From Paenibacillus sp. FSL R7-0345 (GTDB taxonomy: Bacteria; Bacillota; Bacilli; Paenibacillales; Paenibacillaceae): a stretch of 64,000 bases of DNA. The notes under the pieces are model-generated. The model was not told the DNA's origin. It saw nothing but the letters and a program-made list of their open reading frames with translations, and did no database searches. The stretch is from assembly GCF_038595055.1 (NCBI RefSeq), contig NZ_CP152002.1, positions 3,826,501 through 3,890,500 of the forward strand, given 5' to 3'. Made by a program: the position numbers and the translations under genes. This document shows positions 28,286 through 43,785 of this stretch, piece by piece; position 1 is the first letter of the stretch, and every line of letters begins with the position of its first letter.

Positions 28286-29710
28286 CTATTCACCAATGCT
28301 GTTATAAATATCAATATACTGCTGGGCGGAGACGTTCCAGCTGTAGTCGCCGGCGAAGGCGTTTTTGGTTACTTTTTTCCAGTGCTCCGGCTTGTGGTAG
28401 AGCGAAACGGCCCGGCGGAGGGTGTGCATCATATCATGGGCATTGAAATCCTTGAAGGTGAAGCCGTTCCCCTCTCCCGTCTCTTCATTGTAGGACTGGA
28501 CTGTGTCGTTCAGCCCGCCTGTCTCGCGTACTACCGGAATACTGCCATAGCGCAGAGCCAGTAGCTGGCTGATTCCGCATGGCTCGAATTTGGACGGCAT
28601 CAGGAAGATGTCGCTGGCCGCATAGATTTTGCGCGATAAAGCATCATTAAATAGAATCTGTGAAGACAGCTTGGTCGGATAACGCCATGCCGCTTCACGG
28701 AACCACCGCTCATACATCTCATCGCCTGTGCCGAGCAGGACAAACTGGATATCGTCATAATACAGAATCTCATCGAGCACCCGGGTCAGCAGATCAAGGC
28801 CTTTGGAATCTACAAGCCGGGTAACCATGGCCACCATTGGAATGTAAGGTGCGACCGGCAAGCCCAGCTCCTCTTGCAGACCAAGCTTGTTTTCCGCTTT
28901 TTTAGCCAGATTCGAACGGTATTTCGTAAAAATCTTATTGTCTGTATTAGGGTTATAGCTCTTCGTATCAATCCCGTTGACAATCCCGCTCAGGCTGTCC
29001 GCCCGGTGGTTCAGGAGTCCGTCAAGGCCATAGCCGTAATACGGCGTACGGATTTCTTCCGCATAAGTCGGACTGACCGTAGTGACATGATTGCTGTGGA
29101 CAATTCCGGCCTTCATATAATTCACATTGCCGTAATACTCCACGCTGTCAAAATAGCTGTGATCCAGATCCAGCAGCTCATTCAGCACCGAGTACGGGAA
29201 AACTCCCTGGTACAGCAGATTGTGGATCGTGAATACGGTACGCATACCGCTGTAGAACTCGTCATGACGGTAATGAGCCTTCAGCAGCAGCGGAATAACC
29301 GCAGCATGCCAGTCATGGCAGTGCAGCACATCCGGCTGGAAGCCGATGGCCGGAAGGCATTCCAGCACTGCTCTGTTATAGAAGGCAAACCGTTCGCCGT
29401 CATCCATATAACCATAAATGCCATCACGGCCGAAGTAGAATTCGTTGTCGATGAAATAGACCGGGATACCGTCATATACAAGCCGCTCAATTCCGCAATA
29501 TTGATTGCGCCAGCCGACCGGCACGTCTAATACAGCTACCGGTTCGAGCTGGGCAGTGTAGGCTTCAGGAATTCCTTTGTATTTTGGCAAAATAACCCTT
29601 ACATCCACCCCTGCCCCCTTCAGCGCTTTGGGTAGAGCTCCAATAACATCAGCCAGGCCTCCCGTTTTGATAAACGGATGGGCTTCAGCGGCAGCAAATA
29701 ATACTTTCAT
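28286..29710 (-). CDS. glgA: Glycogen synthase (ADP-glucose type)
   Basis: A 474-residue GT5 glucosyltransferase that extends alpha-1,4-glucan from ADP-glucose. The N-terminal ADP-glucose motif KTGGLADVIGALPKAL and the C-terminal catalytic region PSKFEPCGISQLLALRYG are both present, and TGGLNDTV closes the donor site. Length is normal. It follows glgB by 30 bases on the minus strand; glgC is divergent upstream. A strong terminator ends the unit. Confidence 0.96.
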   Translation of the reverse strand: MKVLFAAAEAHPFIKTGGLADVIGALPKALKGAGVDVRVILPKYKGIPEAYTAQLEPVAVLDVPVGWRNQYCGIERLVYDGIPVYFIDNEFYFGRDGIYGYMDDGERFAFYNRAVLECLPAIGFQPDVLHCHDWHAAVIPLLLKAHYRHDEFYSGMRTVFTIHNLLYQGVFPYSVLNELLDLDHSYFDSVEYYGNVNYMKAGIVHSNHVTTVSPTYAEEIRTPYYGYGLDGLLNHRADSLSGIVNGIDTKSYNPNTDNKIFTKYRSNLAKKAENKLGLQEELGLPVAPYIPMVAMVTRLVDSKGLDLLTRVLDEILYYDDIQFVLLGTGDEMYERWFREAAWRYPTKLSSQILFNDALSRKIYAASDIFLMPSKFEPCGISQLLALRYGSIPVVRETGGLNDTVQSYNEETGEGNGFTFKDFNAHDMMHTLRRAVSLYHKPEHWKKVTKNAFAGDYSWNVSAQQYIDIYNSIGE

Positions 29711-29740
29711 GCAGATTTCCCCCTTAAAAGTATGGATTCT

Positions 29741-31669
29741 CTATTCCACAACTGCTTTGGGCTTGCGTCCTGCCTTCTTTAGAACCAGAAAACTTAGCGG
29801 CGGGATCGTCAGTTCCAGGCTGTTTACCTGATTGTGCATTTCTTTCTTGGAACTCTTCAGCGGGCCGTTATGATAACCGGAACCTCCAAGCTCCACAGTC
29901 TCTGAGCTAAAAATTTCTTCATATGTGCCCGGGCGCGGAACCCCGATCCGGTAATTCTTCCGCTCCACCGGCTGAAAATTAATAATGATGATCAGTGTGT
30001 CAACCGGCTTTTTGCCTCTGCGGATATAGGACAACACGCTCTGGTGGTTATCGTCCGCGTAGATCCACTGGTAACCCTCCATGTCATGGTCAAGCTCCCA
30101 TAGCGCCTTCTCGGTTATATAGAGCTTGTTAAGCGCAGCAGTGTAGGCCAGCATCCTGCGGTGGGCCTCATAATCCATCAGCAGCCAGTCAAGCTGGTCC
30201 TGATCCTTCCACTCGATGAACTGTCCGAATTCACCGCCCATGAACAGCAGCTTTTTGCCGGGATGAGAGATCTGATAGCCCAGCAGCAGGCGTAAACCCG
30301 CAAATTTCTGCTCGTAGGAGCCGGGCATTTTGTTCAGCAGCGATTTCTTCCCGTGTACCACCTCATCATGGGATAAAGGCAGTGTATAATTCTCAGAATA
30401 GGCATAGGCAATCGGAAAGGTCAACAAATTGTGATGATAGGGGCGTCCCCCGAAATCATGTTCTATGTAACCTAAGGTGTCATTCATCCAGCCCATGTTC
30501 CATTTGTAATTAAAGCCGAGCCCGCCTTCGTGCGCAGGAGCAGTAACACCCGGCCAGGCGCTGGATTCCTCAGCCATCATCAGTGCTTTTGGATAATAGT
30601 GAAAAATCGTCTTATTCAGCTCCTGAATAAACCGGATCGCCTCCAGATTCTCCAGCCCGCCGTTAATGTTGCGTCTGTACTGGTGATTCTGCTTCTCGAA
30701 ATCGAGGCGCAGCATGCTTGTTACGGCATCGACGCGCATTCCGTCAATATGATAGACATCGTACCAGAAAAGCGCATTGGAAATAAGAAAGGAATGAATT
30801 TCCGGCTTGCTGAAATCAAAGGATAACGTGCCCCAGCCCGGCTTCTCGGCTAAAAGCGGATCGGCATATTCATACAGCGGAGAGCCGTCGAACATTCTGA
30901 GTCCGTGTGCGTCCTTGGCAAAATGCGCCGGAACCCAGTCCAGAATAACAGCGATGCCGGCCTGATGCAGCTGGTCAATCAGATACATCAGCTCTTGAGG
31001 TTCACCATAACGGCTGGTAGCAGCAAAATACCCCGTTCCCTGATAGCCCCATGATAAATCGTAAGGGTGCTCGGCGAGCGGCATAAACTCAACGTGTGTA
31101 TAGCTCATCTCTACCAGATAGGGGATCAGCAGATCGGCCATTTCTTTATAAGTGTAGAATTCACCGTCTTCCTTCTGCTTCCAGGTACCGAAATGCATTT
31201 CATAAATGTTCATAGGCCCGTTATAAGGGGCTTTGTTCTTGCGTCTCCACAGGTTGTCCCCCCACTGGTAGCCGCTGAGATCCGCCACAACTGATGCTGT
31301 CGCCGGTCTCACTTCTGCTTTAAAGGCAAACGGATCTGCCTTCAGGAAGCTTTCGCCGTCAGCTGAGATAATCCTGTATTTGTAAAAAGTTCCCGGCTCT
31401 ATTCCCGGAAAAAAACGACTCCAAAATCCCGAATCGGGTATCTTAATAAATGAGTCCGCTTCCTTTGTTCCATCCCAGCCGTTATGATCACCAGCCAGTC
31501 CTACATATGTCGCATGAGGAGCCCACACGGTAAAGCGTACGCCCTTCATTCCATCTTCAGCGGCAATGTGCGCGCCCAGCATCATATAGCTGCGATAATT
31601 CGTGCCCTCATGGAACAGATAGATATCTTCAGTTGACGGGAGGTTTACTGTTTTTTGGATGTCAGGCAA
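29741..31669 (-). CDS. glgB: 1,4-alpha-glucan branching enzyme
   Basis: A 642-residue GH13 transglycosylase that forms alpha-1,6 branches in glycogen. A CBM48 N-terminal domain (about residues 25-120) is followed by the barrel with DWVPAHFAKD, catalytic Asp in IDGMRVDAVTSML, catalytic Glu in MMAEESSAWPGV and Asp in LPLSHDEVVHGK. It is the first gene of a glgB-glgA unit, with only 30 bases to glgA. The two-gene unit is divergent from glgC; glgP and glgD are not present here. Confidence 0.96.
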   Translation of the reverse strand: MPDIQKTVNLPSTEDIYLFHEGTNYRSYMMLGAHIAAEDGMKGVRFTVWAPHATYVGLAGDHNGWDGTKEADSFIKIPDSGFWSRFFPGIEPGTFYKYRIISADGESFLKADPFAFKAEVRPATASVVADLSGYQWGDNLWRRKNKAPYNGPMNIYEMHFGTWKQKEDGEFYTYKEMADLLIPYLVEMSYTHVEFMPLAEHPYDLSWGYQGTGYFAATSRYGEPQELMYLIDQLHQAGIAVILDWVPAHFAKDAHGLRMFDGSPLYEYADPLLAEKPGWGTLSFDFSKPEIHSFLISNALFWYDVYHIDGMRVDAVTSMLRLDFEKQNHQYRRNINGGLENLEAIRFIQELNKTIFHYYPKALMMAEESSAWPGVTAPAHEGGLGFNYKWNMGWMNDTLGYIEHDFGGRPYHHNLLTFPIAYAYSENYTLPLSHDEVVHGKKSLLNKMPGSYEQKFAGLRLLLGYQISHPGKKLLFMGGEFGQFIEWKDQDQLDWLLMDYEAHRRMLAYTAALNKLYITEKALWELDHDMEGYQWIYADDNHQSVLSYIRRGKKPVDTLIIIINFQPVERKNYRIGVPRPGTYEEIFSSETVELGGSGYHNGPLKSSKKEMHNQVNSLELTIPPLSFLVLKKAGRKPKAVVE

Positions 31670-31828
31670 ATCATCACCACCTTATTGTATAGGATGCACC
31701 TATAACATTACCCGAATGTCCGGCGTTTGAAAATGCGTTTTTAAGGAAAAATTAGGTTTTTTCTGAACGAAGAAAATATAACTGTAATTTTTGCAGGAGT
31801 ACATCAATATATTTCACTTATGCCGTTT

Positions 31829-31838
31829 CAAGCGCTTG
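31829..31838. promoter_or_regulatory. cre-like palindrome ahead of glgC
   Basis: CAAGCGCTTG is a perfect 10-bp palindrome with the AAGCGCTT core of CcpA sites, but the outer bases differ from the cre consensus. A TATATT -10 candidate lies at 31848-31853. Carbon control of glgC would make sense, but the match is partial. Confidence 0.3.
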
Positions 31839-31887
31839 TGGGGAGTTTATATTACAAGCATTGACAAAAATTTGGGAGGGATAACAA

Positions 31888-33111
31888 ATGAGTAAAAAAG
31901 AATGTGTAGCCATGCTGCTGGCTGGCGGGGAAGGCCGCAGATTGGCCCCCTTAACCACCACGATGGCCAAACCTGCAGTCCCTTTCGGAGGACAGTATAG
32001 AATCATTGACTTTCCCCTCAGCAACTGTGTAAATTCAAGCATCGATACTGTAGGCGTACTGACACAGTACGAAGCTAATTCCTTACATCAGCATATAGGG
32101 TCAGGTGAGCCATGGGGGCTGCATTCCAAACCTGATCAGGGTGTCAGACTGCTGCCTTCTGGTGAGGACGGCCGGAGCACTTATACCGGGACAGCAGATG
32201 CCATCTATAAGAACATTGATTTTATCGACAGCCAGAATCCGGAGCATGTGCTGATTCTCTCGGCTGATCATATTTATCACATGGATTACCGCAAAATGCT
32301 GGATTATCATATCAGCAAATCGGCCAAAGCGACGATCTCGGTCATGGAGGTTCCATGGGATGAGGCGAGCCGCTTTGGCGTTATGAATGTTAATGAAGAA
32401 CTGAAGATTTCCGAGTTCGCCGAAAAGCCGAAGGCACCTAAGAGCAATCTGGCTTCCATGGGTATCTACCTGTTCGAATGGGCTTATCTGAAGGAGTATT
32501 TGCTGCGTGATGCTGCTGACTCCTCATCCAGCCATGATTTCGGCAAGGATGTAATCCCGGCGATGCTGGACAGCAACGACGATCTGTTCGCGTACCGTTT
32601 CCAAGGCTACTGGAGAGATGTAGGTACAGTTGACAGCCTTTGGGAAGCTCACATGGATTTGCTGCATGAAGATAACGGCTTCAAGCTGGATAACGCACAG
32701 TGGCCGATGTACAGCCGTGCACGGCGTGCTAAACCGGCAGCTGTTAAATCCCGTATACCGGTTCAGGCGGATGACTGCCTGGTGAACGAAACCTGCCTGC
32801 TGGAAGGCAGCCTGCAGCGTTCTGTTATCTTTGGCGGCGTGGAAATCGGTAAGCTCAGCCGGATTCATCAGAGTATCGTAATGCCTGGTGTACATATCGG
32901 CCGAGGTGTACTGATTGAGAATGCCATCATCGGCGAAGGTGCTGTGATTAAAGATGGCGCTGTGATCAAAGGCAGCCCTGACAACATCGTTGTTGTCGGC
33001 CCTAACGAGATTGTAGCCGCCAAGCCGGTTATTCGTACCCAGCCTTCACGCCTGCTGCAGGAGGTCTACGAGAAAACAGGCAGACTACGGGCCGAAGGAT
33101 TGCCGTCTTAA
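31888..33111 (+). CDS. glgC: Glucose-1-phosphate adenylyltransferase
   Basis: A 407-residue enzyme making ADP-glucose, the donor for GlgA. It shows the nucleotidyltransferase loop [42 protein letters not shown] and [10 protein letters not shown]; a C-terminal left-handed beta-helix follows (from about residue 290). A GGAGG site precedes the ATG. No glgD partner is adjacent, unlike B. subtilis glgBCDAP. It is divergent from glgBA and followed by a clear terminator. Confidence 0.96.
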
Positions 33112-33135
33112 GCCTTATCATCCAATTATAATATT

Positions 33136-33181
33136 AAAGGGCTGCAATACAGGTCAGATGACCGTATTGCAGCCCTTTTTG
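33136..33181 (+). terminator. Terminator after glgC
   Basis: A long stem (33136-33154 with 33159-33177, a few unpaired bases) ending in TTTTT. Confidence 0.88.
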
Positions 33182-33209
33182 CTATCTGCCGGAGATGATA
33201 GCCGTTCCG

Positions 33210-34655
33210 TCACAACTCGTAATCGTTCACGTCTTCTCTCGGCGGCGGTACAACCGCCGGCGGACGCTCATCGGTCAACGGCAGGATTACTGTTACTTGT
33301 GTGCCTTGGCCGAGCTCGCTGGCCATTTCCAGCTTACCGTGATGCAGCTCGACAATCTGCTGGGAAATCGCCAGTCCGAGGCCGGTTCCGCCGTTTAAGG
33401 CATCAACCTGGAAGAAGCGGTCCCGCACTCTGGACAGATGTGCTTCACTGATACCGATTCCGCTGTCCCTGACGATCACTGCCATTTCGGCCCCTGACAG
33501 ACGTTCTGCAGACAGAACGATGCTGGAATCCTCCGGGGAGAATTTGACGGCATTGTCTACAAGATTAAGGAACACCTGCTTGAGCCGGTTCGGATCCCCC
33601 TTGATGTAAATGCTGTCCTCACATTCGAGCACCAGATGAATCCGCTTCTTCTCTGCCTTGGCCCAGATATTCAGGATCGTCTCCTGCAGCACAACTTTGA
33701 TATCTGTCAGCACAACGGACAGCTTCATTTCATTTTGCTGCAGCTTGGAAAAGTCCAGGATCTCCTCCACCAGGCCGATCAGTCGGTCGCTTTCCTTCGA
33801 GATAATCCCCATCCCGAGCTTTGTCTCCTCCGGATCGTAACCGCCGGAAATCAGTGTCTCGCTCCAGCCTTTGATACTGGTCAGCGGAGTCCTTAGCTCA
33901 TGAGAGATTGAAGAAATGAAATCATCCTTGATCTGGTTGCTGCGGATAATCTCATCCGCCATATAATTCAGCGTAGTCGCCAGATCGCCGATTTCATATT
34001 TGTAATCCCCTTTGATCCGGGCGTTGAACCTGCCCTTCGCCATCTGGGCTGAGACGGCTGTAATATTATTCAGCGGCTTGACAATCGAATTCGCCAGACC
34101 AAAGCTGAACAGGACAACGATGACCATAACAGCCGCACCGATACCAATCGACGCCAGGGTAAGATTAAGCAGATCCTTATCAATCCGTTCCATTGAAGTG
34201 AGATAACGGATTACATATTTGTCCCGGCTGTTCACCTGAATCAGCTTGGAGACCGCCATGACACTTTCATTCGTTCCCGCCTGTCTGCCCACCCATTTGC
34301 CGATGCTTCCGCCGACAGCTTCCGGAACATCACTTGTAGTGATTGTCCGGTCTGGCTGAAATCCGGTGGAGCTGGTCAGGATATCCCCGCTGGTAGACAG
34401 CACTTCGAGCTCTGTATAATCCATGCTGAAGAAATCAAGCACCTTCTGCAGCTGGTTGGGCGAACGCTCGCCCGAGATTTCGTATTTCAGAAATTCCTCC
34501 GCCGTGCTGATATGGGTCGTAATCTTGCTGTACACACTGTCATAATAGTACGTCCGTATCGCCAGCAGGAAGATAACCTCTACGAGGAGAAGCGCCACAA
34601 AGACTACTAATATATAGTGCAGTACAATCTGTCTGCGCATCCCCTTCTTAATCAT
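33210..34655 (-). CDS. Two-component sensor histidine kinase
   Basis: A 481-residue membrane kinase: TM1 near residues 12-35, an extracellular sensor domain to about 160, TM2 about 165-190, HAMP (IVKPLNNITAVSAQMAKGRF), HisKA with the phosphorylated His in ISSISHELRTPLTSIKG, and HATPase with LKQVFLNLVDNAVKFS, VRDSGIGIS and GGTGLGLAIS. The ATG at 34655 overlaps the response regulator stop (ATGA), so they are co-translated. It is the last gene of a four-gene unit with the ABC ATPase and lipoprotein. The signal is unknown. Confidence 0.92.
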   Translation of the reverse strand: MIKKGMRRQIVLHYILVVFVALLLVEVIFLLAIRTYYYDSVYSKITTHISTAEEFLKYEISGERSPNQLQKVLDFFSMDYTELEVLSTSGDILTSSTGFQPDRTITTSDVPEAVGGSIGKWVGRQAGTNESVMAVSKLIQVNSRDKYVIRYLTSMERIDKDLLNLTLASIGIGAAVMVIVVLFSFGLANSIVKPLNNITAVSAQMAKGRFNARIKGDYKYEIGDLATTLNYMADEIIRSNQIKDDFISSISHELRTPLTSIKGWSETLISGGYDPEETKLGMGIISKESDRLIGLVEEILDFSKLQQNEMKLSVVLTDIKVVLQETILNIWAKAEKKRIHLVLECEDSIYIKGDPNRLKQVFLNLVDNAVKFSPEDSSIVLSAERLSGAEMAVIVRDSGIGISEAHLSRVRDRFFQVDALNGGTGLGLAISQQIVELHHGKLEMASELGQGTQVTVILPLTDERPPAVVPPPREDVNDYEL

Positions 34656-35350
34656 TGTCCCTGGCCTTTCCATTTATAGCCGTGCCCCCATACAGTCTGC
34701 AGATATTCGGGCTCCGACGGATTGTTTTCGATTTTTTGGCGCAGCCGGCGGATGTTCACATCGACGATCTTAGGATCGCCCATATACTCCTTGCCCCATA
34801 CATGATCCAGCAGGGAATCCCGGCTGAGCGGGGTATTTTCCTTCTCCAGGAAAAATTGCACCAGTGAAAATTCGGTCGGCGTCAGTTCGATCGCCTCCCC
34901 GCTGCGCTTGAACTGCTTGGAGATCAGATCCAGCGTAAACGGGCCGGAGTGGAAGGATACTTTGGCGGACTGCTCGCGGTGTACATTAACCCGGCGCAGC
35001 AGCGATTGAATACGTGCGATCAGCTCCGTCGGGCTGAACGGCTTGCTGACATGATCATCAGCACCTACGGACAGGGCATAAACCTTATCCTGTTCCTGCA
35101 CCTTGGCGGTCAGAAAGATAATCCCCAGCCGCTCATTCGTCTCACGGATGCGCCGGCATACCTCGAACCCGTCAATTCCCGGCACCATTACATCCAGCAG
35201 TGCAATATCGATATCAGGCACGGTGGTCAGCTTGTGCAGCGCTTCATTGCCGTCAGCCGCCTCCAGCACCTCGAATCCGTTACGCTTCAGGTTGATCACA
35301 ATAAAACTGCGGATGGATTCCTCATCCTCCAGTATCAGTACTTTACTCAT
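34652..35350 (-). CDS. OmpR-family response regulator
   Basis: A 232-residue DNA-binding regulator. The receiver domain has the acidic pair LEDEES, the phosphorylated Asp in IALLDVMVPGIDGFEV, Thr/Lys in FLTAKVQEQ and HVSKPFSP; the C-terminal winged helix is standard (ELTPTEFSLVQFFLEK, IVDVNIRRLRQKIE, VWGHGYKW). The ATG at 35350 follows AAGGAAGGG and lies 8 bases inside the lipoprotein gene's end; it overlaps the kinase gene by 4 bases. Targets are unknown, possibly its own operon. Confidence 0.93.
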   Translation of the reverse strand: MSKVLILEDEESIRSFIVINLKRNGFEVLEAADGNEALHKLTTVPDIDIALLDVMVPGIDGFEVCRRIRETNERLGIIFLTAKVQEQDKVYALSVGADDHVSKPFSPTELIARIQSLLRRVNVHREQSAKVSFHSGPFTLDLISKQFKRSGEAIELTPTEFSLVQFFLEKENTPLSRDSLLDHVWGKEYMGDPKIVDVNIRRLRQKIENNPSEPEYLQTVWGHGYKWKGQGQ

Positions 35351-36626
35351 CGATTCCCTTCCTTTCAATTGGAGCGGTTATTTTATCGTTGTCGCTCCCG
35401 CCCGTGCTCTGTACCAGTTCACCCCGGTAGCCGATGATTTTGTCCATATCCCGTCCAAGCACCTTCCAGCCGCTGCTCTTGACCCGGTCCCATTCCATCT
35501 GGGTGAAGAAGGTTACCTCGACCACCGTCTCCCCCGTATCTGACATGATGAATTTCAGCGATTTATCCTGTACGGATTTGGTATCCACCGTAATCTTTCC
35601 GTGCCATTCCGGCAAAAAATCAATCACGAAGCGGTCCGAGGAGTCACGGTACTTCTGCGCCGTAAAGCTCAGGCCGTCCTTCCCGTCCCATTTGTAATAG
35701 GAGGTGAAGTAGGGAATGGTTTCGGGGTCAAAATATTCCCAGCCGCTTGGCGCCTCCAGCATGCCAATTTCAATAATGCCGTCACCGTCAATGTCCTCGC
35801 TGACAATCTTCCGGTCCTTAAACGTATTGGCATCCCCCGGGATAACTACCCGCAGCTTGTTATTCTCCATTACAACTACAGTGGTATAGGCCGAGCGGGA
35901 ATCCACCGCCGCATCCAGGACAATACCTTCTTTATGCTCTGCTACTTTTCCTGAGACAATATTGTAATAATTATTAAAATACGGGTCCAGGTCATCCAGC
36001 TGGTCAAGCACCTTGAAGCCGTCGTCATACTGGTAGGTGGTTATTTTGTTCAGCTCATTGCGTTTAAAATACACCAGCGTCAGATCAGCGGTCCCGTCTT
36101 CATTCAGGTCATCCACCATATATTTGGTGTACGGCTGGGCCAGCAGCTCCTCCAGCTCGCCGCCGGAATAGGAGTAAACGACTACCCCCTTCTCTTCCCC
36201 GCGTGAATATCCGGTAATGATATCCAGCTTGCCGTCCCCGGTCACATCCCTCAGGTCAACGGATTCCAGCTGCGTTCCGTCACCGTCAAAGACGAGCTTC
36301 TTCACCCAGCCGTCCTCTGTTTTCTCCAGTATCATACCGTGGATCAGGACCGACTCGTTCTCTGTCAGATAAAAAACCAGCGTCTCCATCGTGCCGTCCT
36401 TATCAAAATCCTCAGTAAATATGGAGCTGTCCTCATCACCGGAAGGACGGATCAGCGAAGCACTGGCCGGCATCTGGGATTTGATAGCGGTCATAAGCGA
36501 GGCTTTGTCGGCGGTCAGCTCCGGAGACTTCATCTTCGAAACAGGATCGCTGATGAAGGTACAGCCCGACAGTACGGACAATGACAGGACAGCCGCCGTC
36601 AGACGTCTGGGAATACATAGATTCAA
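35343..36626 (-). CDS. Lipoprotein with VCBS/FG-GAP-like calcium-type repeats
   Basis: A 427-residue exported lipoprotein; the lipobox is LSVLSGCTF with Cys 22. Four DxDxDG-like loops recur (DFDKDGTME, DVTGDGKLD, DLNEDGTAD, DIDGDGIIE), as in VCBS/FG-GAP beta-propeller proteins, so it probably folds into a Ca-binding propeller on the outer membrane face. TTG start is likely. It follows an ABC ATPase gene by 38 bases and overlaps the response regulator gene by 8, so it is embedded in a signalling operon. Function unknown; it may sense or bind an extracellular ligand for the kinase (inference). Confidence 0.8.
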   Translation of the reverse strand: MNLCIPRRLTAAVLSLSVLSGCTFISDPVSKMKSPELTADKASLMTAIKSQMPASASLIRPSGDEDSSIFTEDFDKDGTMETLVFYLTENESVLIHGMILEKTEDGWVKKLVFDGDGTQLESVDLRDVTGDGKLDIITGYSRGEEKGVVVYSYSGGELEELLAQPYTKYMVDDLNEDGTADLTLVYFKRNELNKITTYQYDDGFKVLDQLDDLDPYFNNYYNIVSGKVAEHKEGIVLDAAVDSRSAYTTVVVMENNKLRVVIPGDANTFKDRKIVSEDIDGDGIIEIGMLEAPSGWEYFDPETIPYFTSYYKWDGKDGLSFTAQKYRDSSDRFVIDFLPEWHGKITVDTKSVQDKSLKFIMSDTGETVVEVTFFTQMEWDRVKSSGWKVLGRDMDKIIGYRGELVQSTGGSDNDKITAPIERKGIDE

Positions 36627-36664
36627 ACTTCATCACTCTTTCCTTGTTTCATAGCTCTACTCTG

Positions 36665-37390
36665 TTACAGGTTTATACGCTCCTGGGAAGTCAGGCGGCG
36701 TCCTCTTACATCATGCTTGATTCTGCCGTTTTCCAGCACCCACAGCCGCGTTGCATAACGTTCCGCCAGCTCGAGCGGAAGTACAGTAATTACAGTCAGT
36801 CCCGTTTCTTTGCAGAGTCTGCGCAGCGTCTCCAGGACACCCTCAGCTGTCCGCGGATCCAGGCCAGTTACCGGCTCGTCGGCCAATATCACCTTGGCTC
36901 CGTGTACAAGGGCACGGGCAATGGCTACACGCTGGCGCTCGCCCCCGCTGAGCTGGCTTGTCTTCAGCTTGGCCTTATCCAGCAGTCCGAGCGTATCCAG
37001 CTCGTCCATTGCCCCCATATAATCATCCTGACGGACCATCCCGGTCACCATCCGCCATAGCGGCGTCTGTGAAGCCTGGCCGATCAGTACATTCTTCAGT
37101 GCGGTACGGTTCGGGTTAAGCTCAGCATTCTGCTCCAGATAGGCCCATTCGCGGCGGATCTTGCGTCTGCCGGCGAGCGGGCTTTTCATAATATCGATCC
37201 CGTCCACCCGGAAGTTCCCTCTATCCCATTTCTCGCGCAGCGCCAGACAGCGAAGCAGCGTGGACTTGCCGCTTCCGCTTGCTCCCACCAGCACTACGAG
37301 CTCCCCCGGCTCTAATTGAAAACCGATATCCTGCAGAACGGGCATTTTGTCTTCTCCGACTGCTTTGGCTAGATGTTCAACTGTAATCAT
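36665..37390 (-). CDS. ABC transporter ATP-binding protein, no cognate permease nearby
   Basis: A 241-residue ABC ATPase. Walker A (VGASGSGKST), Q-loop (WAYLEQNAEL), signature (LSGGERQRVAIA) and Walker B (VILADEPVTGLD) are intact. The H-loop is not: where relatives have a histidine (NLH in PhnC, THE in MetN-type) this protein reads ITVLPLELAERYA, with Pro in that place. It resembles PhnC-type ATPases. No permease gene is adjacent; it is the first gene of the unit with the lipoprotein and two-component genes. It may energise a distant permease or act as a non-transport ATPase. Confidence 0.85.
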   Translation of the reverse strand: MITVEHLAKAVGEDKMPVLQDIGFQLEPGELVVLVGASGSGKSTLLRCLALREKWDRGNFRVDGIDIMKSPLAGRRKIRREWAYLEQNAELNPNRTALKNVLIGQASQTPLWRMVTGMVRQDDYMGAMDELDTLGLLDKAKLKTSQLSGGERQRVAIARALVHGAKVILADEPVTGLDPRTAEGVLETLRRLCKETGLTVITVLPLELAERYATRLWVLENGRIKHDVRGRRLTSQERINL

Positions 37391-37480
37391 AGTTCAGCCT
37401 CTCCCTGTTTTGGTCTCTATTCTATAGTGTACTCTGAAAGCGGGACCAATTACCATGCGTACATCTGTTCTTATCTTATC

Positions 37481-38656
37481 TCAATTCAGCTGCCGTGGCG
37501 AGAATAATAACCCGGTCAGGCCGAACAAAATATAGAAACCGCCCAGCAGCACGAATACGCCGTTGCCCCAGCCGAATTCCAGCAGCAGGCCGCCGATGCC
37601 CGGACCGATGATACTGCCTATACTAAAATGAAAAGAAGAAACCACATTGGCTGCAGGCAGCAGATTGCGCGGCAGAATGTCCGCCGCATAGCTGAGCCCC
37701 AGCGAGAAGAAAGAGCCGACAAGGCCCCCGGCTGCCAGCAGCAGGAGCAGTGTCAATCCAAAATGTCCGCCGGCAATAGGCAGCAGAGTAAAGGCCAGAC
37801 CGCCCGCGGTTCCGGCAAAAATCAGAATTTTTTTGCGCCCGAACCGGTCGCTCCACATACCCAGCGGCAGCTGGAGCAGCAGGCCGCCGATTCCGGCAAA
37901 CGGCAGCAGGGTGGCGATCTGGTCTGTAGTGAACCCTGAACGGAGCCCATACACCGGGAAATTGCTGTTCAGGCTTGCTTCCATGTATCCGTACAGCAGC
38001 GCCGGAATTAGCGCATACCAGGCCAGGCTGTAGCTGCGACCGAACCGGCGGGCCTGTCCCTCACTGTGTTCCACTTTATCAGGCCGGGAATTCGGCAATT
38101 TAAACAGAACCAGCATAAGGGCCAGCATAAACAATCCGGCCAGGATCAGAAAAGGAGCAGCCTCACCGAAGCGCAACAGGCTGATTCCGGCCGGGCCGAG
38201 GCTGAAGCCGAGTCCGTAGGACATCCCGTAGAGCGAGAGATTGCGTCCCCTGTGCTCTGCCGGAGCCATTAACAGCACCCAGAGCTGGGCTGCATAGTTG
38301 ATTGCCGAGTCTCCGATGCCGACAAGCAGGCGCAGGATGAACCACACCTTGATGCCGGGCAGCAGCGGGAACAACAGCAGGGTTACCAGGACGAGACTGA
38401 GTCCGGCGGCTATCAGTTTCTTGAAGCCGATGGCGCCAAGCACCCGTTCAGCAACGAGGGTCATAGCAAAGGAGCCGACGTAAAGGGCTGCGGCGTTTAA
38501 TCCGTTGAGCGACGAGGAAACGCCCTTTTGTTCAAGCAGGATCGAGAGCACCGGCAACAGCAGCCCCTGACTTAGCCCTGCGGCGATAATGACGGTAATA
38601 AGAATGAAATAGTTCAGCTTACTGTTGGATCGTGTAGATGAAAGCGGGTCTGACAC
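37481..38656 (-). CDS. MFS transporter
   Basis: A 391-residue, 12-helix major facilitator, probably an efflux pump or sugar-type exporter. The signature loop between TM2 and TM3 region and the second-half motif GMWSDRFGRKKILIFAG (about residues 250-265) are typical. The GTG start at 38656 follows AAGGAGG by 8 bases; an upstream in-frame ATG lacks a binding site. It is divergent from the ArsR-type regulator at 38800, which probably controls it (inference). The substrate is unknown. Confidence 0.88.
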   Translation of the reverse strand: MSDPLSSTRSNSKLNYFILITVIIAAGLSQGLLLPVLSILLEQKGVSSSLNGLNAAALYVGSFAMTLVAERVLGAIGFKKLIAAGLSLVLVTLLLFPLLPGIKVWFILRLLVGIGDSAINYAAQLWVLLMAPAEHRGRNLSLYGMSYGLGFSLGPAGISLLRFGEAAPFLILAGLFMLALMLVLFKLPNSRPDKVEHSEGQARRFGRSYSLAWYALIPALLYGYMEASLNSNFPVYGLRSGFTTDQIATLLPFAGIGGLLLQLPLGMWSDRFGRKKILIFAGTAGGLAFTLLPIAGGHFGLTLLLLLAAGGLVGSFFSLGLSYAADILPRNLLPAANVVSSFHFSIGSIIGPGIGGLLLEFGWGNGVFVLLGGFYILFGLTGLLFSPRQLN

Positions 38657-38799
38657 AGGTAAATCCTCCTTGAACGTTATCAGGTAAATACGGACATAAC
38701 TTGCCCCGGAAGGCAAACATGGAACATTATAGTGGACAACCTTCTTCAAAACAAGAGATAATATATAGAAGTGACCGATTTCCTGGGGGTGCAAGCTGC

Positions 38800-39723
38800 A
38801 TGACTTATGAACTCAAAATTGATGTCTCGCCTGTCTATGAGCTGATTGACAGTTTTATGTTATATGTTACACGAAAATGGATTTCCAACCTGGATATCGG
38901 CCCTGACTGGATCCGCGATATTGACGGCCGCATTCCTCCTCAGCAGGTAACCACCCTCCGGCAGGCCGCCGAATGGCCTTTTACCGATTATGATGTCCTG
39001 TACGTCTGGGCTTACCGCCGCCAGCCTGCATCGAAGGTGCTGCAATTCCTGAATGAACTGGAAACGCAGTCACTGGAAGAGTGCTTTGCCCAGACTGCGC
39101 CGCTGTTTCCGGATTTTACAATTTCAGAATGCGCACGGATCAAACGGGATTATCCCCCGCTCCTGAGGCTGTGGTACGAGCAGTATTTCCGCCATACCGA
39201 GCAGAAGCTGCTGCCGATCCTGATCGAGGACGCCTCCGAGAAAAAAATGCTGGAGAGCAAAATGGGCTCTGCAGCGCTGATTGAGTATGCTTCAGGCGGC
39301 GTAGTCATTGAGGATATTCCTGATCTGCAGACTGTGGTGCTGCTACCGACCATTCATAACCGGCCGATCAATATGTATTGCTTCTATAATACACTTATGA
39401 TTATCCAGTATCCTGTGGATGTCCCCTCCGACAATGAGGACGAGCCCCCTACTGTCCTGCTGCGCCTGACCAAAGCGCTGTCTGATCCGACCAGACTCCG
39501 GCTGCTCCGCTACGCTGCACATGAACCCAAAACGCTGTGGGAGCTGCAGTCTGTGCTCGGCCAGACCAGTGATACGATGATGCATCATCTGCTGATGCTG
39601 CGTGTCGCCGGCCTGCTGCGGGTTCATCTGGGCAGTGAAGGCGAAGGCAATGAACGCTACAGTGTCCGGCCGGACGGCGCATCCGATCTGCAGATGTTCC
39701 TTGAGTCTTATATTCGTTTATAA
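38800..39723 (+). CDS. ArsR-type winged-helix regulator with large N-terminal domain
   Basis: A 307-residue regulator. The C-terminal quarter (about residues 215-300) is an ArsR winged helix, with KALSDPTRLRLLRY (the typical DPTRL start), TLWELQSVLGQTSDTMMHHL as recognition helix region. The first 200 residues form a domain I do not recognise, perhaps ligand binding. No metal-binding cysteine motif of classic ArsR is seen, so it is not likely a metal sensor. The ATG at 38800 follows a GGGGG stretch. Divergent from the MFS gene across 143 bases. Confidence 0.75.
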   Translation: MTYELKIDVSPVYELIDSFMLYVTRKWISNLDIGPDWIRDIDGRIPPQQVTTLRQAAEWPFTDYDVLYVWAYRRQPASKVLQFLNELETQSLEECFAQTAPLFPDFTISECARIKRDYPPLLRLWYEQYFRHTEQKLLPILIEDASEKKMLESKMGSAALIEYASGGVVIEDIPDLQTVVLLPTIHNRPINMYCFYNTLMIIQYPVDVPSDNEDEPPTVLLRLTKALSDPTRLRLLRYAAHEPKTLWELQSVLGQTSDTMMHHLLMLRVAGLLRVHLGSEGEGNERYSVRPDGASDLQMFLESYIRL

Positions 39724-39778
39724 TAACTATATTCAGTCAGAGATTGCTGACTAACTTACAGGTTTAGGAGTGAGCGTT

Positions 39779-40531
39779 ATGAAATATTTGCCGCAACAAG
39801 TTATTTTTGATCTGGACGACACCCTGGTACACTGCAACAAATATTTTGACCTCATTCTGGGGCAGTACTTTGAGCTCATGTCCGATTGGTTCGGCGAATA
39901 TGGCCCGACAACCGGCGAATTCCGCAGCAAGCAGGTGGAGATTGATGTGGAAACAGTCAGCACCAGCGGACTGGCCAGCGACAATTTCCCGAAATCCCTG
40001 ATTGCTACCTATCACTTTTTCTGCGCTAAATATAACCGGGCTGCCGATCCTTATCATGAGCAGCAGCTGATGAAGCTCGGGCTGAGCGTCTATGACCAGG
40101 AGGTTGAGGCCTATCCGGGAATGGTGGAAACGCTCGACGCGCTCAAGCATGACGGGCACGACCTGTATTTGTATACAGGCGGAGACGATACTATCCAGCA
40201 GCGTAAAATTGAGCAGATGAAGCTCGATATTTATTTTGACGACCGGATCTTTATCCGCCAGCACAAAAACATTGAGTCACTTGAAAATATCCTCATGTCA
40301 TATCCGTTCGAACGCCAGCGCACCTGGATGATCGGCAATTCCCTGCGCACTGACGTGCTCCCGGCCTTGACTGCCGGCATTAACAGCATCTACCTGAAGC
40401 AGCAAAATGAATGGCTGTACAACCTGATTGAGCTTCAGCGGGAAATGCAGCAGTCGGTCATGACGATCTCCTCGATCAGTGAGGTTCCGCCGGTCATCCG
40501 TACGGCCTCCAAGCTGCAAAGCCACGGCTGA
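39779..40531 (+). CDS. HAD superfamily hydrolase
   Basis: A 250-residue phosphohydrolase-type protein. The catalytic aspartates are in VIFDLDDTLVHCN (residues 8-20), motif II is YTGGDD, and motif IV is WMIGNSLRTDVLPA with the metal Asp. A helical cap domain lies between residues 20 and 110. The substrate is unknown. The ATG at 39779 follows AGGAG by about 8 bases; a GTG at 39770 is an alternative. It follows the ArsR-type gene on the same strand. Confidence 0.88.
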   Translation: MKYLPQQVIFDLDDTLVHCNKYFDLILGQYFELMSDWFGEYGPTTGEFRSKQVEIDVETVSTSGLASDNFPKSLIATYHFFCAKYNRAADPYHEQQLMKLGLSVYDQEVEAYPGMVETLDALKHDGHDLYLYTGGDDTIQQRKIEQMKLDIYFDDRIFIRQHKNIESLENILMSYPFERQRTWMIGNSLRTDVLPALTAGINSIYLKQQNEWLYNLIELQREMQQSVMTISSISEVPPVIRTASKLQSHG

Positions 40532-40639
40532 TATCAGCTAATCCGGATAAGCCTCCTGTTACAAATGCCATAGGCATTTGACAGCCGCTGTGTTTATACT
40601 GTTTGAGAAGATTTTTCCATCTCAATCAGGAGGCTTAGA

Positions 40640-41401
40640 ATGAACAAGCAAGCAAGTCCTAACCGTACACAAAATAAGCAGTCTGTCCGGAAGAACACCG
40701 GCTCCCGTCTGCTGCCCATGCTGCTTGGTATCATCGCTGTTATTCTGGCAATTGTACTTATCTATGTCCTTACAGACGGCAACTCCAAAGAAGAAAATGC
40801 GCTTGAAGGGCTGCCTAATTACACGGATGTAAAAGGTACAATTACAGTTGACGGTCTGAAGTATGAGAAGCAGCCGCATCTGGGCAGTCCGGACGCCAAG
40901 GTCAAGGTGATCGAGTTCGCCGATTTCAAATGCCCGGCCTGCAAGAAATGGACCGAAGTTAATCTGGATACCTTCATCAAGGATTATGTGGACACCGGAA
41001 AAGCCGAGCTTTATTTCATGAACTTCGCCTTTATCGACCGTGACTCTTATCTCGCGGCCAGCGCCGGGGAAGCGATCTTTAAGCAGAGCAACGAGAAGTT
41101 CTGGGAATATGTCCATGAGCTGTACGCCAATCAGGGCGATGAGAGCACCATCTGGGCTACCCAGAAATTCATCCTTAACTTTGTCAAAGAGAACATTGAT
41201 GGCATTGATTATACCCGGTTCGAGCAGGATGTGAAGAATCACACCTACATGTATGACGTTAAGGAAGATTTCAAAATTGCCGGAGCGTACGGCGTTAACG
41301 GTACTCCCAAATTTATGGTGAACGGCGTCCTGCTGCCGGATTCCTCTTATGAGGGATTAACAGCCGCGATTGAGAGCAGCCTGGCGGAGACTGCGAAATA
41401 A
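40640..41401 (+). CDS. Membrane-anchored DsbA-like thiol-disulfide oxidoreductase
   Basis: A 253-residue protein, anchored by an N-terminal helix (residues 25-48, LLGIIAVILAIVLIYVL), with a thioredoxin-like DsbA domain outside. The active site is FADFKCPACKKW (CPAC) and the cis-proline loop is GVNGTPKFMVNG. It matches BdbD/DsbA-type oxidases, which form disulfides in secreted proteins. No bdbC-like DsbB partner is adjacent. AGGAGG precedes the ATG, and a good terminator follows. Confidence 0.9.
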   Translation: MNKQASPNRTQNKQSVRKNTGSRLLPMLLGIIAVILAIVLIYVLTDGNSKEENALEGLPNYTDVKGTITVDGLKYEKQPHLGSPDAKVKVIEFADFKCPACKKWTEVNLDTFIKDYVDTGKAELYFMNFAFIDRDSYLAASAGEAIFKQSNEKFWEYVHELYANQGDESTIWATQKFILNFVKENIDGIDYTRFEQDVKNHTYMYDVKEDFKIAGAYGVNGTPKFMVNGVLLPDSSYEGLTAAIESSLAETAK

Positions 41402-41422
41402 GCATAGGTTTGTGCAAAAGAG

Positions 41423-41475
41423 GAGGATGCAGCCTGCCGGGAGATCCCGCGGTCAGGCTGCATCCTCTTTTTTTT
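41423..41475 (+). terminator. Terminator between DsbA-like gene and topB
   Basis: A 14-bp perfect stem (GAGGATGCAGCCTG at 41423-41436 with 41454-41467) followed by TTTTTTTT. The A-rich left flank could also serve the convergent topB. Confidence 0.88.
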
Positions 41476-41484
41476 ACAACCAAG

Positions 41485-43785
41485 TTATTCTACGCTAAGC
41501 TGCCCCGTATCCATGTTAGCCAGCACCAGCTTGCCATCGAGCGGGGAACCGTCTTCGGCAGCCAGCTTCAGCTTGCCGGTCTTCCCCTTCTCGATCAGCG
41601 CCTTTACCTGAGTATCCGTCAGCGTGCGGCCATGGGTTTCCTTCCAGATGACAAACTTGCAGCCTTCTTTGTAATGAGAGCAGCCGTAGCCCTTGCGGCC
41701 CATGAAAATCGTGCCGCCGCAGCCCGGCCGCGGGCAGCCGCCGATAATCTTCGGCCCGCCGTCACCTTGCGCTGCCGGCTTCGCCGCTCTTGTTCCGGCC
41801 GGCTTGGCGCCAGCTCCGCCGTCTCCGGCACTGCTGCGCTTGCACGCTCCGGCAGCCGGCTTGACCGCGCTGTCCTTGGATGCTGCGCCGCTGCTCCGGC
41901 CTTTGGAGCCGGCCCGGACAGAAGGCGTCTCGCCTTCAAAGGAGGTTTTGGCTGCACGGGACTGCACCTTTACCTTGTCGACGATCATGGATGCGAAGCG
42001 TTTCACGTTCTCCATGAACTGCCCGTCTGCAGCCGTACCTCTGGCGATTTCATTGAGCCGCCGCTCCCATTGTCCGGTCATTTCCGGTGAGGTCAAGAGC
42101 TCGATGCCCGCTCCGCGGATCAGTTCAATCGCCGTCCGCCCCTTTTGGGTGATGGCAATCTTTTTCCCCTGCATTTCCACATAGCCAACATTTTTCAGCC
42201 GCTCTATCGTCGCTGCCCGGGTTGCCGGTGTTCCAAGCCCGGAATCCTTCATAGCATCGCGCAGCTCCTCGTCTTCAATCTGCTTGCCCGCGCTTTCCAT
42301 CGCTTTGAGCAGGGTGCCTTCGGTGTAATGCTTGGGCGGCTGCGTATCCTTCTCTTTTACCACAGCATCGCTGCACATTACTTCATCCGCAGGGGAGACA
42401 GAGAACGGCTCGTTCACCTCGATCTCCTCTTCCTCCTCATCATCCTTGCCTTTTCCTTTAGCCGGCTTGGCCTTGTCCTTCTTCTGATCGGCATAAATCA
42501 CCTTCCAGCCAAGACTCAGCAGCTCCTTAACCGTAGTCTTGAAGTTTTCGCCCTCAACCTCCGTTATCACGGTATGCACCTTATATTCGGCGGCCGGATA
42601 AAACTGCGACAGGAAACGGCGCACAATCAGATCATACAGCTTAGCTTCATCTGCACTCAGTCCCGACGCCTTGCGGTTGGTCGGCAGGATCGCATGGTGA
42701 TCTTCCACTTTGGACGGATTACAGACAAATTTATTGCCTTTATGGACTAGGCTGCGGTTAGCGCCTTTGACCAGCTCGTCGTAAGAAGTCCCTTGCAGCG
42801 CATTCAGCGTCTTGTGCATCTCCGGAATGTTTTGCTCGGTAACATAGTTGGAATTCGTGCGCGGATACGAGATAACCTTGTGCTTTTCATAGAGCGCCTG
42901 GGCAATGTCCAAGGTCTTTTTGGCAGAAAAAGCATATTTCCCGTTCGCTTCACGCTGCAGCAGCGTCAAATCGTACAGCTTGTTCGGGTACTCCTTCGTA
43001 TCCTTAACCTCATAGGAAGCAATCCGGCCGGGTTTGCCCTTGACCTTGGCAGCCAGTGCATCGGCCTTCTCCTTGTCAGTCAGGCGGTCGCCCTGCCACA
43101 TGCCTTTATAGACAACCTCATTTTGCGTAAAATGACCCTCGACCTCAAAAAACTTCAGCGACGAAAACGCCTCAATCGTCTTTTGGCGGTCATAGATCAG
43201 CGCAAGCACGGGCGTCTGCACCCGGCCAACGGACAGCAGCACATTATGCTTCGTTGTAAAAGCGCGTGAGCCGTTCATTCCGATCAGCCAGTCTGCTTCA
43301 CTGCGCGCTCTGGCCGCTTTGGTCAGATTCTCATACTCCGAGCCGTCCTTCAGCTCCTGGAAGCCTTTGCGGATCGTCTCCGGCGTCAGGTCGGAAATCC
43401 ACAGCCGCTTAACCGGCTGGCTAAGCTTAAGATGGCGCTGAATCAGTGAAAAAATATGCTGCCCCTCCCGCCCCGCGTCACAGGAATTCACCAGCAGGTC
43501 ACTGCGTTTAGCCAGTTCTCCAATCACTTTCAGCTGGTCAACAGTACGGGCATTCGGCACCAGCTTGAACTGGTCAGGAATAATCGGCAAATCGTTAATG
43601 TTCCACTTTTTGTATTTGTCATCATAAGCATCCGGTTCGGCGAGTCCGATCAGATGACCGATTGCCCAGGTGATGATGTACTGCTCCCCTTCTAAATAGG
43701 AGCGGTGATTTTTGGCCTTCGGTTCTATTGCGGCGGCGATATTCCGTCCCATGTCCGGTTTCTCCGCAATAATGAGTGTTTTCAA
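41485..43785 (-). CDS. topB: DNA topoisomerase III
   Basis: A 766-residue type IA topoisomerase that decatenates single-stranded DNA. The TOPRIM domain starts with TLIIAEKPDMGRNIAAA and has the NSCDAGREGQHIF metal site; the catalytic Tyr lies in KVISYPRTNSNYV. A lysine/acidic insertion (KAKPAKGKGKDDEEEEE) sits near residue 440, and the C-terminus has an Ala/Lys/Arg-rich linker and one four-cysteine zinc ribbon (CPRPGCGG then CSHYKEGC). The long basic linker is variable in relatives. Convergent with the DsbA-like gene. Confidence 0.95.
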   Translation of the reverse strand: MKTLIIAEKPDMGRNIAAAIEPKAKNHRSYLEGEQYIITWAIGHLIGLAEPDAYDDKYKKWNINDLPIIPDQFKLVPNARTVDQLKVIGELAKRSDLLVNSCDAGREGQHIFSLIQRHLKLSQPVKRLWISDLTPETIRKGFQELKDGSEYENLTKAARARSEADWLIGMNGSRAFTTKHNVLLSVGRVQTPVLALIYDRQKTIEAFSSLKFFEVEGHFTQNEVVYKGMWQGDRLTDKEKADALAAKVKGKPGRIASYEVKDTKEYPNKLYDLTLLQREANGKYAFSAKKTLDIAQALYEKHKVISYPRTNSNYVTEQNIPEMHKTLNALQGTSYDELVKGANRSLVHKGNKFVCNPSKVEDHHAILPTNRKASGLSADEAKLYDLIVRRFLSQFYPAAEYKVHTVITEVEGENFKTTVKELLSLGWKVIYADQKKDKAKPAKGKGKDDEEEEEIEVNEPFSVSPADEVMCSDAVVKEKDTQPPKHYTEGTLLKAMESAGKQIEDEELRDAMKDSGLGTPATRAATIERLKNVGYVEMQGKKIAITQKGRTAIELIRGAGIELLTSPEMTGQWERRLNEIARGTAADGQFMENVKRFASMIVDKVKVQSRAAKTSFEGETPSVRAGSKGRSSGAASKDSAVKPAAGACKRSSAGDGGAGAKPAGTRAAKPAAQGDGGPKIIGGCPRPGCGGTIFMGRKGYGCSHYKEGCKFVIWKETHGRTLTDTQVKALIEKGKTGKLKLAAEDGSPLDGKLVLANMDTGQLSVE

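Follow-up and report, generated by a model that had tools for sequence, protein, structure and literature searches.

A lipoprotein gene kept with a two-component system in Bacilli, and the permease-less ATPase that precedes it in part of one family

What holds together a run of four genes that encode an ATP-binding cassette (ABC) ATPase without a permease, a lipoprotein, a response regulator and a histidine kinase? The question is raised by a stretch of 64,000 nucleotides (“the window”) from Paenibacillus sp. FSL R7-0345, positions 3826501–3890500 of its 7.0 Mb, one-contig genome. On the minus strand, read 5′ to 3′, the genes follow one another head to tail; we refer to them as ABC, LP (lipoprotein), RR (response regulator) and HK (histidine kinase). 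ABC and LP are separated by 38 bases (36627–36664), LP and RR overlap by 8 bases, and RR and HK overlap by 4 bases. An earlier note on this DNA, which had the four genes, their coordinates and these spacings exactly right, proposed that they form one transcript and a four-part system of a kind not described, in which the kinase may receive its signal by way of the lipoprotein. Here, we describe the gene order, spread, separability, motif states and covariation of the four genes. The conserved unit is LP-RR-HK; ABC is conserved separately and precedes the trio in part of the family. With a probability of roughly 0.64, we read LP-RR-HK as a three-component signaling module of Bacilli, with LP acting from the outside to tune HK and ABC as a co-transcribed passenger.

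Conservation and separability of the four genes

Close relatives of LP were collected at 58 loci, 18 from named contigs and 40 selected among the family genomes that have an LP match (234 of 295). All 58 lipoproteins are mutually distinct over their last 380 residues, and the closest named relatives come from Paenibacillus strains (96% identity). The order and strand of ABC-LP-RR-HK are the same in all 57 loci that show the four genes. One locus (L010) is outside this count since its contig ends after LP; another (L021), from a fragmented metagenome-assembled genome in which the RR and HK open reading frames (ORFs) are broken but in order, was included. ABC precedes LP at all 58 clade loci. 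At six of them (L078–L081, L089 and L091), the two are separated by 0.85–1.2 kb with an extra gene. A permease was considered as the inserted gene and rejected, because the inserts encode a polysaccharide deacetylase (L078:4904–5926 by Pfam; L079–L081 by eye) or a DUF3298/PdaC-type protein (L089:5214–5822 by Pfam; L091:7375–8013 by eye) instead. Cell-wall type genes are found between ABC and LP in two or more genera, and a DUF3298/PdaC gene follows ABC in some others; these neighbors are a hint, at most, that the envelope is the theme.

The survey of neighborhoods that the earlier note had called for gives a different picture outside this clade, where the genes are separable. In 17 family genomes selected for a weak or unfound LP (L092–L108), ABC is always present (E 1.7e-114 to 5.8e-97, with the next best ATPase at 6.6e-58), and in 16 it has the same HAD gene nearby. 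Of these genomes, 11 contain LP matches, never at the place of ABC, and three contain an RR match of E 1e-60 or better, at other genome positions. At the loci scanned, the unlinked ABC is followed by GNAT, DUF3298/PdaC, receiver-only or amino-acid permease-like genes.

At 36 of the 44 Bacilli loci that lie outside the clade, in turn, the trio is present and this ATPase is not. These include all 24 loci from the same genome, family and order (L022 and L109–L131), one of which is a second LP-RR-HK trio in the genome of the window (L022:9508–13261, i.e., ~5958507–5962260) whose LP is 29% identical to that of the window over its first part. The remainder are 12 of the 20 class-level loci (L132–L151), where ABC matches are distant only (26–29%). 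Two class-level loci from one genus (L144 and L145) carry the order LP-RR-HK; the order RR-HK-LP is seen at L147 and L148, as well as at L109–L111, where the lipoproteins are short. In the order, 172 of 246 genomes have a match to an LP hidden Markov model at E 0.001 or better; in the class, 84 of 299 do. Arrangements vary further. In another family of the order, four LP genes surround a single RR-HK pair (LP LP LP RR HK LP, L115:5033–12398), and at L134, L141, L142, L146 and L149–L151, LP genes have no neighboring two-component genes, with those at L149–L151 encoding just 279–310 aa.

Because the trio occurs without the ATPase and the ATPase occurs without the trio, LP-RR-HK is the conserved unit, and ABC is conserved separately. 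Their union is a lineage-specific join, with ABC as the older neighbor. The earlier claim of a four-part system that includes the ATPase is therefore not supported, although the four genes do stay together within the clade. In a true four-gene machine, the ATPase would act together with LP, RR and HK. It could be a nucleotide-dependent partner of HK, for instance, or belong to a transporter whose activity is sensed by HK, as in BceAB-BceRS modules, in which an ABC permease with a large extracellular domain is encoded beside a two-component system. The constant position of ABC before LP in the clade and a conserved promoter block in front of ABC (see below) speak for such a machine. Nevertheless, we consider it very improbable, given the 17 genomes with ABC away from the trio, the 36 trios without this ATPase, and the six loci with another gene between ABC and LP. 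Furthermore, as the earlier note had stated, no permease gene adjoins ABC (ORFs at 28286–42090 read, eight neighbors scanned), and none of the BceAB type is among the ORFs of that interval. HK, with its extracytoplasmic domain of ~120 residues, also differs from kinases of the BceS type.

The lipoprotein and the sensor of the kinase

LP is a lipoprotein, as the earlier note had it, but “VCBS-like” is not the best label for it. FG-GAP models fit better, with FG-GAP_3 (PF13517) at 28.9 bits (gathering cut-off 26.9) and FG-GAP (PF01839) at 24.5 bits (22.1), both barely above cut-off; up to E = 1, the Pfam scan gave nothing else, and no VCBS model. The lipobox, in which G21 and C22 are invariant in all 25 aligned sequences (window included), suggests that LP is lipidated. 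Four loops of the pattern D-x-[DNTS]-x-[DNS]-G, the DxDxDG-type loops already noticed in the earlier reading, are present. Shuffled LP sequences contain 0.21 such loops on average, and none of 2000 shuffles reaches four. The loop-leading residues Asp73, Asp127, Asp173 and Asp278 are invariant in the same 25 sequences, and with a slightly looser pattern, 45 of the 58 relatives have at least four loops and the other 13 have three.

An AlphaFold model of LP built with 25 sequences consists largely of beta structure and has a small C-terminal part (mean predicted local distance difference test [pLDDT] 84.3; predicted TM-score [pTM] 0.74). By name, its fold matches are diverse beta-propeller proteins, tied at a Z of about 11–12. 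Sugar-binding or sugar-cleaving propellers, i.e., PVL lectin and YesW, are among them, tied with many unrelated propellers. LP is thus predicted to be a beta-propeller, probably one that is metal-stabilized through the four loops, and calcium may be the metal bound. Because the propeller matches are many and tied, the number of blades and the class of ligand are unreadable. Among solved structures, just two match LP by sequence, a designed TIM barrel (E 0.00067) and a Toxin A chain (E 0.0098); both matches are marginal, and we took them as chance.

RR has the Pfam domains Response_reg and Trans_reg_C, and HK has HAMP, HisKA and HATPase_c. In a model of HK (pLDDT 73.6), a membrane helix is followed by an alpha/beta domain at ~68–154, PAS-like by eye, and a second membrane helix. 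Assignment of the pair to PhoPR/PnpS, WalRK or MtrAB was tried and rejected, since curated cut-offs were missed in each case: HK scores 240.8 bits against WalK (cut-off 725) and 236.9 against PnpS (400), while RR scores 204.6 against YycF (340) and 207.2 against PhoB (296.2); the scores for MtrAB are given below. The proteins differ greatly in conservation. Mean column identity of RR is 87% in 20 aligned sequences. Across 37 non-redundant loci, mean identity is 91% for the RR receiver, 88% for the RR DNA-binding domain, 70% for the HK core and 67% for ABC, falling to 51% for the LP propeller and 49% for the HK sensor; the flanking HAD and HTH genes have values of 63% and 54%. With RR at ~90% and LP and the HK sensor at ~50%, the pattern suggests a fixed, probably important regulon behind a fast-changing sensor.

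LP and the HK sensor also change together. With linear controls for the HAD and HTH distances (37 non-redundant loci out of 56), the partial correlation between LP propeller and HK sensor distances is 0.60, a value reached by 0 of 2000 permutations; for LP and the HK kinase core, it is −0.08. With four control genes and their squares (29 of 46 loci; HAD, HK core, HTH and MFS), LP and the HK sensor retain a partial correlation of 0.28 (1/1000). We regard this as moderate support for contact between LP and HK. ABC and LP likewise give 0.46 (0/2000) with linear controls, as a four-gene machine would lead one to expect, but with quadratic controls the value falls to 0.17 and 0.14 (98 and 115 of 1000 permutations as high), the latter with the four control genes, and we dropped it.

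From these observations, we infer the following mechanism. After export, LP would receive a lipid at Cys22 that holds it to the outer face of the membrane. There, its propeller and C-terminal part would touch the single extracytoplasmic domain of HK. With an extracellular or envelope cue as input, LP would thereby determine how far HK acts as a kinase or as a phosphatase. HK would phosphorylate RR, which is of the OmpR type, and in several related lineages RR would bind a repeat upstream of the operon that encodes it. The suggestion in the earlier note that the lipoprotein feeds a signal to the kinase is backed, as a reading of the sequences, by the trios without the ATPase and by the covariation of LP with the HK sensor.

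The candidate binding site is an 11-base direct repeat, TGTTAC-N5-TGTTAC, which we sought in 38 LP upstream regions outside the clade, some of them from loci with LP alone and the rest from trio loci, requiring at least 10 of 12 matches on either strand. It is found in 16 regions, at loci L118–L127, L129, L134, L138 and L143. Letter shuffles gave a mean of 1.0 and a maximum of 5, and spacings of 3, 4, 6 and 7 gave 0, 3, 3 and 2. We consider it probable that RR binds this repeat before its own operon in several related lineages.

The same repeat is compatible with LP being the output of the system rather than an input, i.e., a surface lipoprotein (e.g., one that binds carbohydrate or wall) that is controlled by an autoregulated two-component system and for that reason co-transcribed with it. 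Outside the clade, 31 of 36 trio loci begin with LP, and the other five have the order RR-HK-LP; the repeat precedes LP in 16 of 38 regions. The four LP genes around one RR-HK pair at L115 fit an output that has multiplied, LP occurs without an adjoining two-component system of the same kind at 8 of 20 class-level loci, and PVL lectin and YesW are among the structural matches, though tied with unrelated propellers. However, the divergence of LP follows the sensor domain of HK and not its kinase core, and LP is found beside RR-HK more commonly than alone (36/44). On balance, we judge LP as an output to be unlikely, though it is the alternative to be taken most seriously.

Several points count against LP as a tuner of HK. 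Conserved linkage alone would fit LP as a mere target of RR too, and the eight class-level loci in question (L134, L140–L142, L146 and L149–L151) have LP without an adjoining RR or HK of the same kind. At 10 of the 24 loci from the same genome, family and order (L022, L109–L111, L116, L117 and L128–L131), the LP best matches the own-genome paralog and not the LP of the window. The structural matches of LP are globally weak, with a TM-score by query of at most 0.35 among the matches listed, and the pTM of the HK model is 0.40. The correlation of LP with the HK sensor drops from 0.60 to 0.28 under quadratic controls, and an HTH neighbor that is no part of the system reaches 0.30 with LP (7/1000) when HAD and the HK core are controlled quadratically; part of the covariation may therefore reflect shared rate or linkage. 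As for the repeat, it was not found in 22 of the 38 upstream regions, that of the own-genome paralog among them; 10 of the 16 repeat loci (L118–L127) are neighbors from one family and not independent; and L134 has the repeat though LP is alone there. TGTTAC-type boxes resemble those of WalR and PhoP, either of which could bind. Lastly, the promoter block of the window operon differs from the TGTTAC motif, and 6 of 25 loci have it in weak form or not at all.

Relation to known systems

Among the closest described counterparts of LP-RR-HK is MtrA-MtrB-LpqB of Actinobacteria. LpqB carries GerMN and LpqB-type propeller domains. In the published passages that concern it, this co-encoded lipoprotein is named a likely modulator of the kinase (PMC12338722) and a beta-propeller domain protein that interacts with MtrAB (PMC13068155). 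In both systems, a propeller lipoprotein (in our case predicted, with lipidation suggested by the lipobox) is encoded with an OmpR-type response regulator and a HAMP kinase, and the mechanism proposed in those passages, a lipoprotein that modulates the kinase, is alike. There are also differences. HK scores 181.5 bits, far short of the MtrB cut-off of 450, and RR likewise reaches 199.7 where the MtrA cut-off is 300; LP has FG-GAP repeats and no match to a GerMN or LpqB-type domain; and the lipoprotein gene comes first here, in contrast to lpqB, which lies downstream of mtrB, in another phylum. LpqB does not appear in the lists of fold matches of LP, which excludes nothing. LP-RR-HK resembles MtrAB-LpqB but is not a member of it.

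A second comparison is with Parageobacillus thermoglucosidasius. A paper of April 2026 describes AOT13_14265 as a lipoprotein, predicted to be a seven-bladed propeller, in a likely operon with the two-component system AOT13_14255, and proposes that it interacts with the kinase as a three-component system (PMC13068155). AOT13_14265 and LP are thus alike as predicted propeller lipoproteins in a likely operon with a two-component system. AOT13_14265 is possibly of the same family as LP, which has LP-RR-HK loci in one class-level genus (L144 and L145). The passage on this operon mentions no ATPase, unlike the operon of the window. As to the claim that the system is not a described one, no paper on the exact system, or on the LP family in Paenibacillus, was found in searches of an open-access library, in agreement with the earlier note; the three-component kind, on the other hand, is established and, in the passage cited, already proposed for the Parageobacillus operon. 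What is new, as far as we searched, is the LP family, its spread and the degenerate ATPase.

In Streptomyces, the SigE-CseA-CseB-CseC operon starts with a sigma factor and encodes a lipoprotein with a response regulator and a histidine kinase. CseA is not known to be a propeller, and the window operon differs from the Streptomyces one in having no sigma factor.

If our reading is correct, LP-RR-HK would be a Gram-positive counterpart of the idea drawn from actinobacterial MtrAB-LpqB, with the accessory protein in front, and would offer a tractable system, in harmless spore-formers, for studying how kinases are tuned by accessory lipoproteins.

The ATPase, the transcript and the neighboring genes

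PhnC is the best NCBIfam model for ABC, at 212.2 bits, below the TIGR02315 cut-off of 266.1. Unlike PhnC, ABC has no PhnD or PhnE adjoining and has lost the His of the H-loop, while Walker A, the LSGGERQ signature, Walker B and the D-loop are intact. A PhnE pair above cut-off lies elsewhere in the genome (5971144–5972706), in an operon with PhnC and PhnD named by eye, and that PhnC retains the switch His. Among the 59 trio-linked copies of ABC (window included), the position of the H-loop His is occupied by Pro in 53, which also have the following residue deleted, by His in 3 and by Gln in 3; the Q-loop Gln is retained in all 59. The 17 unlinked copies show a different state, with the switch His retained in 13 and Glu in place of the Q-loop Gln in 14. 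Both residues are present in just 5 of 76 copies. Because ABC is permease-less and one or the other catalytic loop is altered, it probably does not power ordinary import. The most likely reading is that it travels as a passenger on the transcript and has a non-transport or separate role of its own. It is improbable, in our view, that ABC was recruited from transport to signaling as a nucleotide-dependent cytoplasmic partner of the propeller-lipoprotein/kinase module, in what would be an as yet undescribed type of four-part sensor. ABC offers a clean case of the question of what an ABC ATPase does without a permease and an H-loop. PADLOC yielded nothing beyond a partial match of ABC to mads_3 (residues 138–223), which we took as general ABC similarity.

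Coordinates of the four genes and associated features are given in Table 1.

Table 1. Features of the locus, with positions in the window
Feature	Position	Strand	Basis
ABC, PhnC-like ATPase without permease, 241 aa	36665..37390	-	ABC_tran 114 bits; PhnC best NCBIfam model
LP, lipoprotein, predicted beta-propeller and small C-terminal part, 427 aa, TTG start	35343..36626	-	Pfam, alignment, AlphaFold model, fold matches
RR, OmpR/PhoB-type response regulator, 232 aa	34652..35350	-	Pfam, NCBIfam, alignment
HK, one extracytoplasmic domain, HAMP, HisKA and HATPase_c, 481 aa	33210..34655	-	Pfam, model
H-loop region TVITVLP of the ATPase, Pro for switch His, next residue deleted	36776..36796	-	Alignment
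Lipobox LSGC of LP (Cys22)	36561..36572	-	Direct reading; alignment
LP loop 1, DFDKDG, residues 73–78	36393..36410	-	Pattern and alignment
LP loop 2, DVTGDG, residues 127–132	36231..36248	-	Pattern and alignment
LP loop 3, DLNEDG, residues 173–178	36093..36110	-	Pattern and alignment
LP loop 4, DIDGDG, residues 278–283	35778..35795	-	Pattern and alignment
Promoter block CATGGNAWTT-N8-TTTC-N4-TAMACTA before ABC	37425..37457	-	Footprint in many relatives
Stable hairpin between HK and convergent glgC, probable shared terminator	33136..33178	.	Folding energy

An MFS gene of the same orientation lies upstream of ABC and ends 90 bases short of it, and the promoter block sits within this gap. A 30-base motif of the block scores at least 10 in 19 of 25 non-redundant loci, and with zero mismatches the block has one site genome-wide, before ABC. 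No MFS match was seen in 8 of the 58 related loci. Because the block is conserved between species and unique in the genome, and because MFS is not seen in those eight loci, the four genes are most likely transcribed from their own promoter. A regulon defined by the block was considered and rejected, since sites with three mismatches number two elsewhere, compared to three for a reversed control pattern. Downstream of HK, the hairpin has a folding energy of −33.3 kcal/mol (z −8.33), with none of 200 shuffles equally stable. Its T-run is good toward glgC (TTTTT) and poor toward HK (only TTTAATATT), and a consensus terminator scan did not list it. Together, the overlaps, the promoter block, the hairpin and the constant order in 57 of 57 relatives back the single transcript put forward in the earlier note, and the four genes are presumably co-transcribed.

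Glycogen genes flank the unit, with glgA-glgB on the minus strand and glgC on the plus strand (28286–33111 of the window). In many relatives, glgC adjoins HK; in several, it is at least 1 kb away or was not seen. On the other side (37481–39723) lie two divergent genes, one for the MFS transporter and one for a 340-aa protein whose C-terminal domain is HTH_20; their 5′ ends overlap when ORFs are called at their longest. This MFS/HTH_20 pair is kept with the HAD gene and a topoisomerase-like gene in many relatives.

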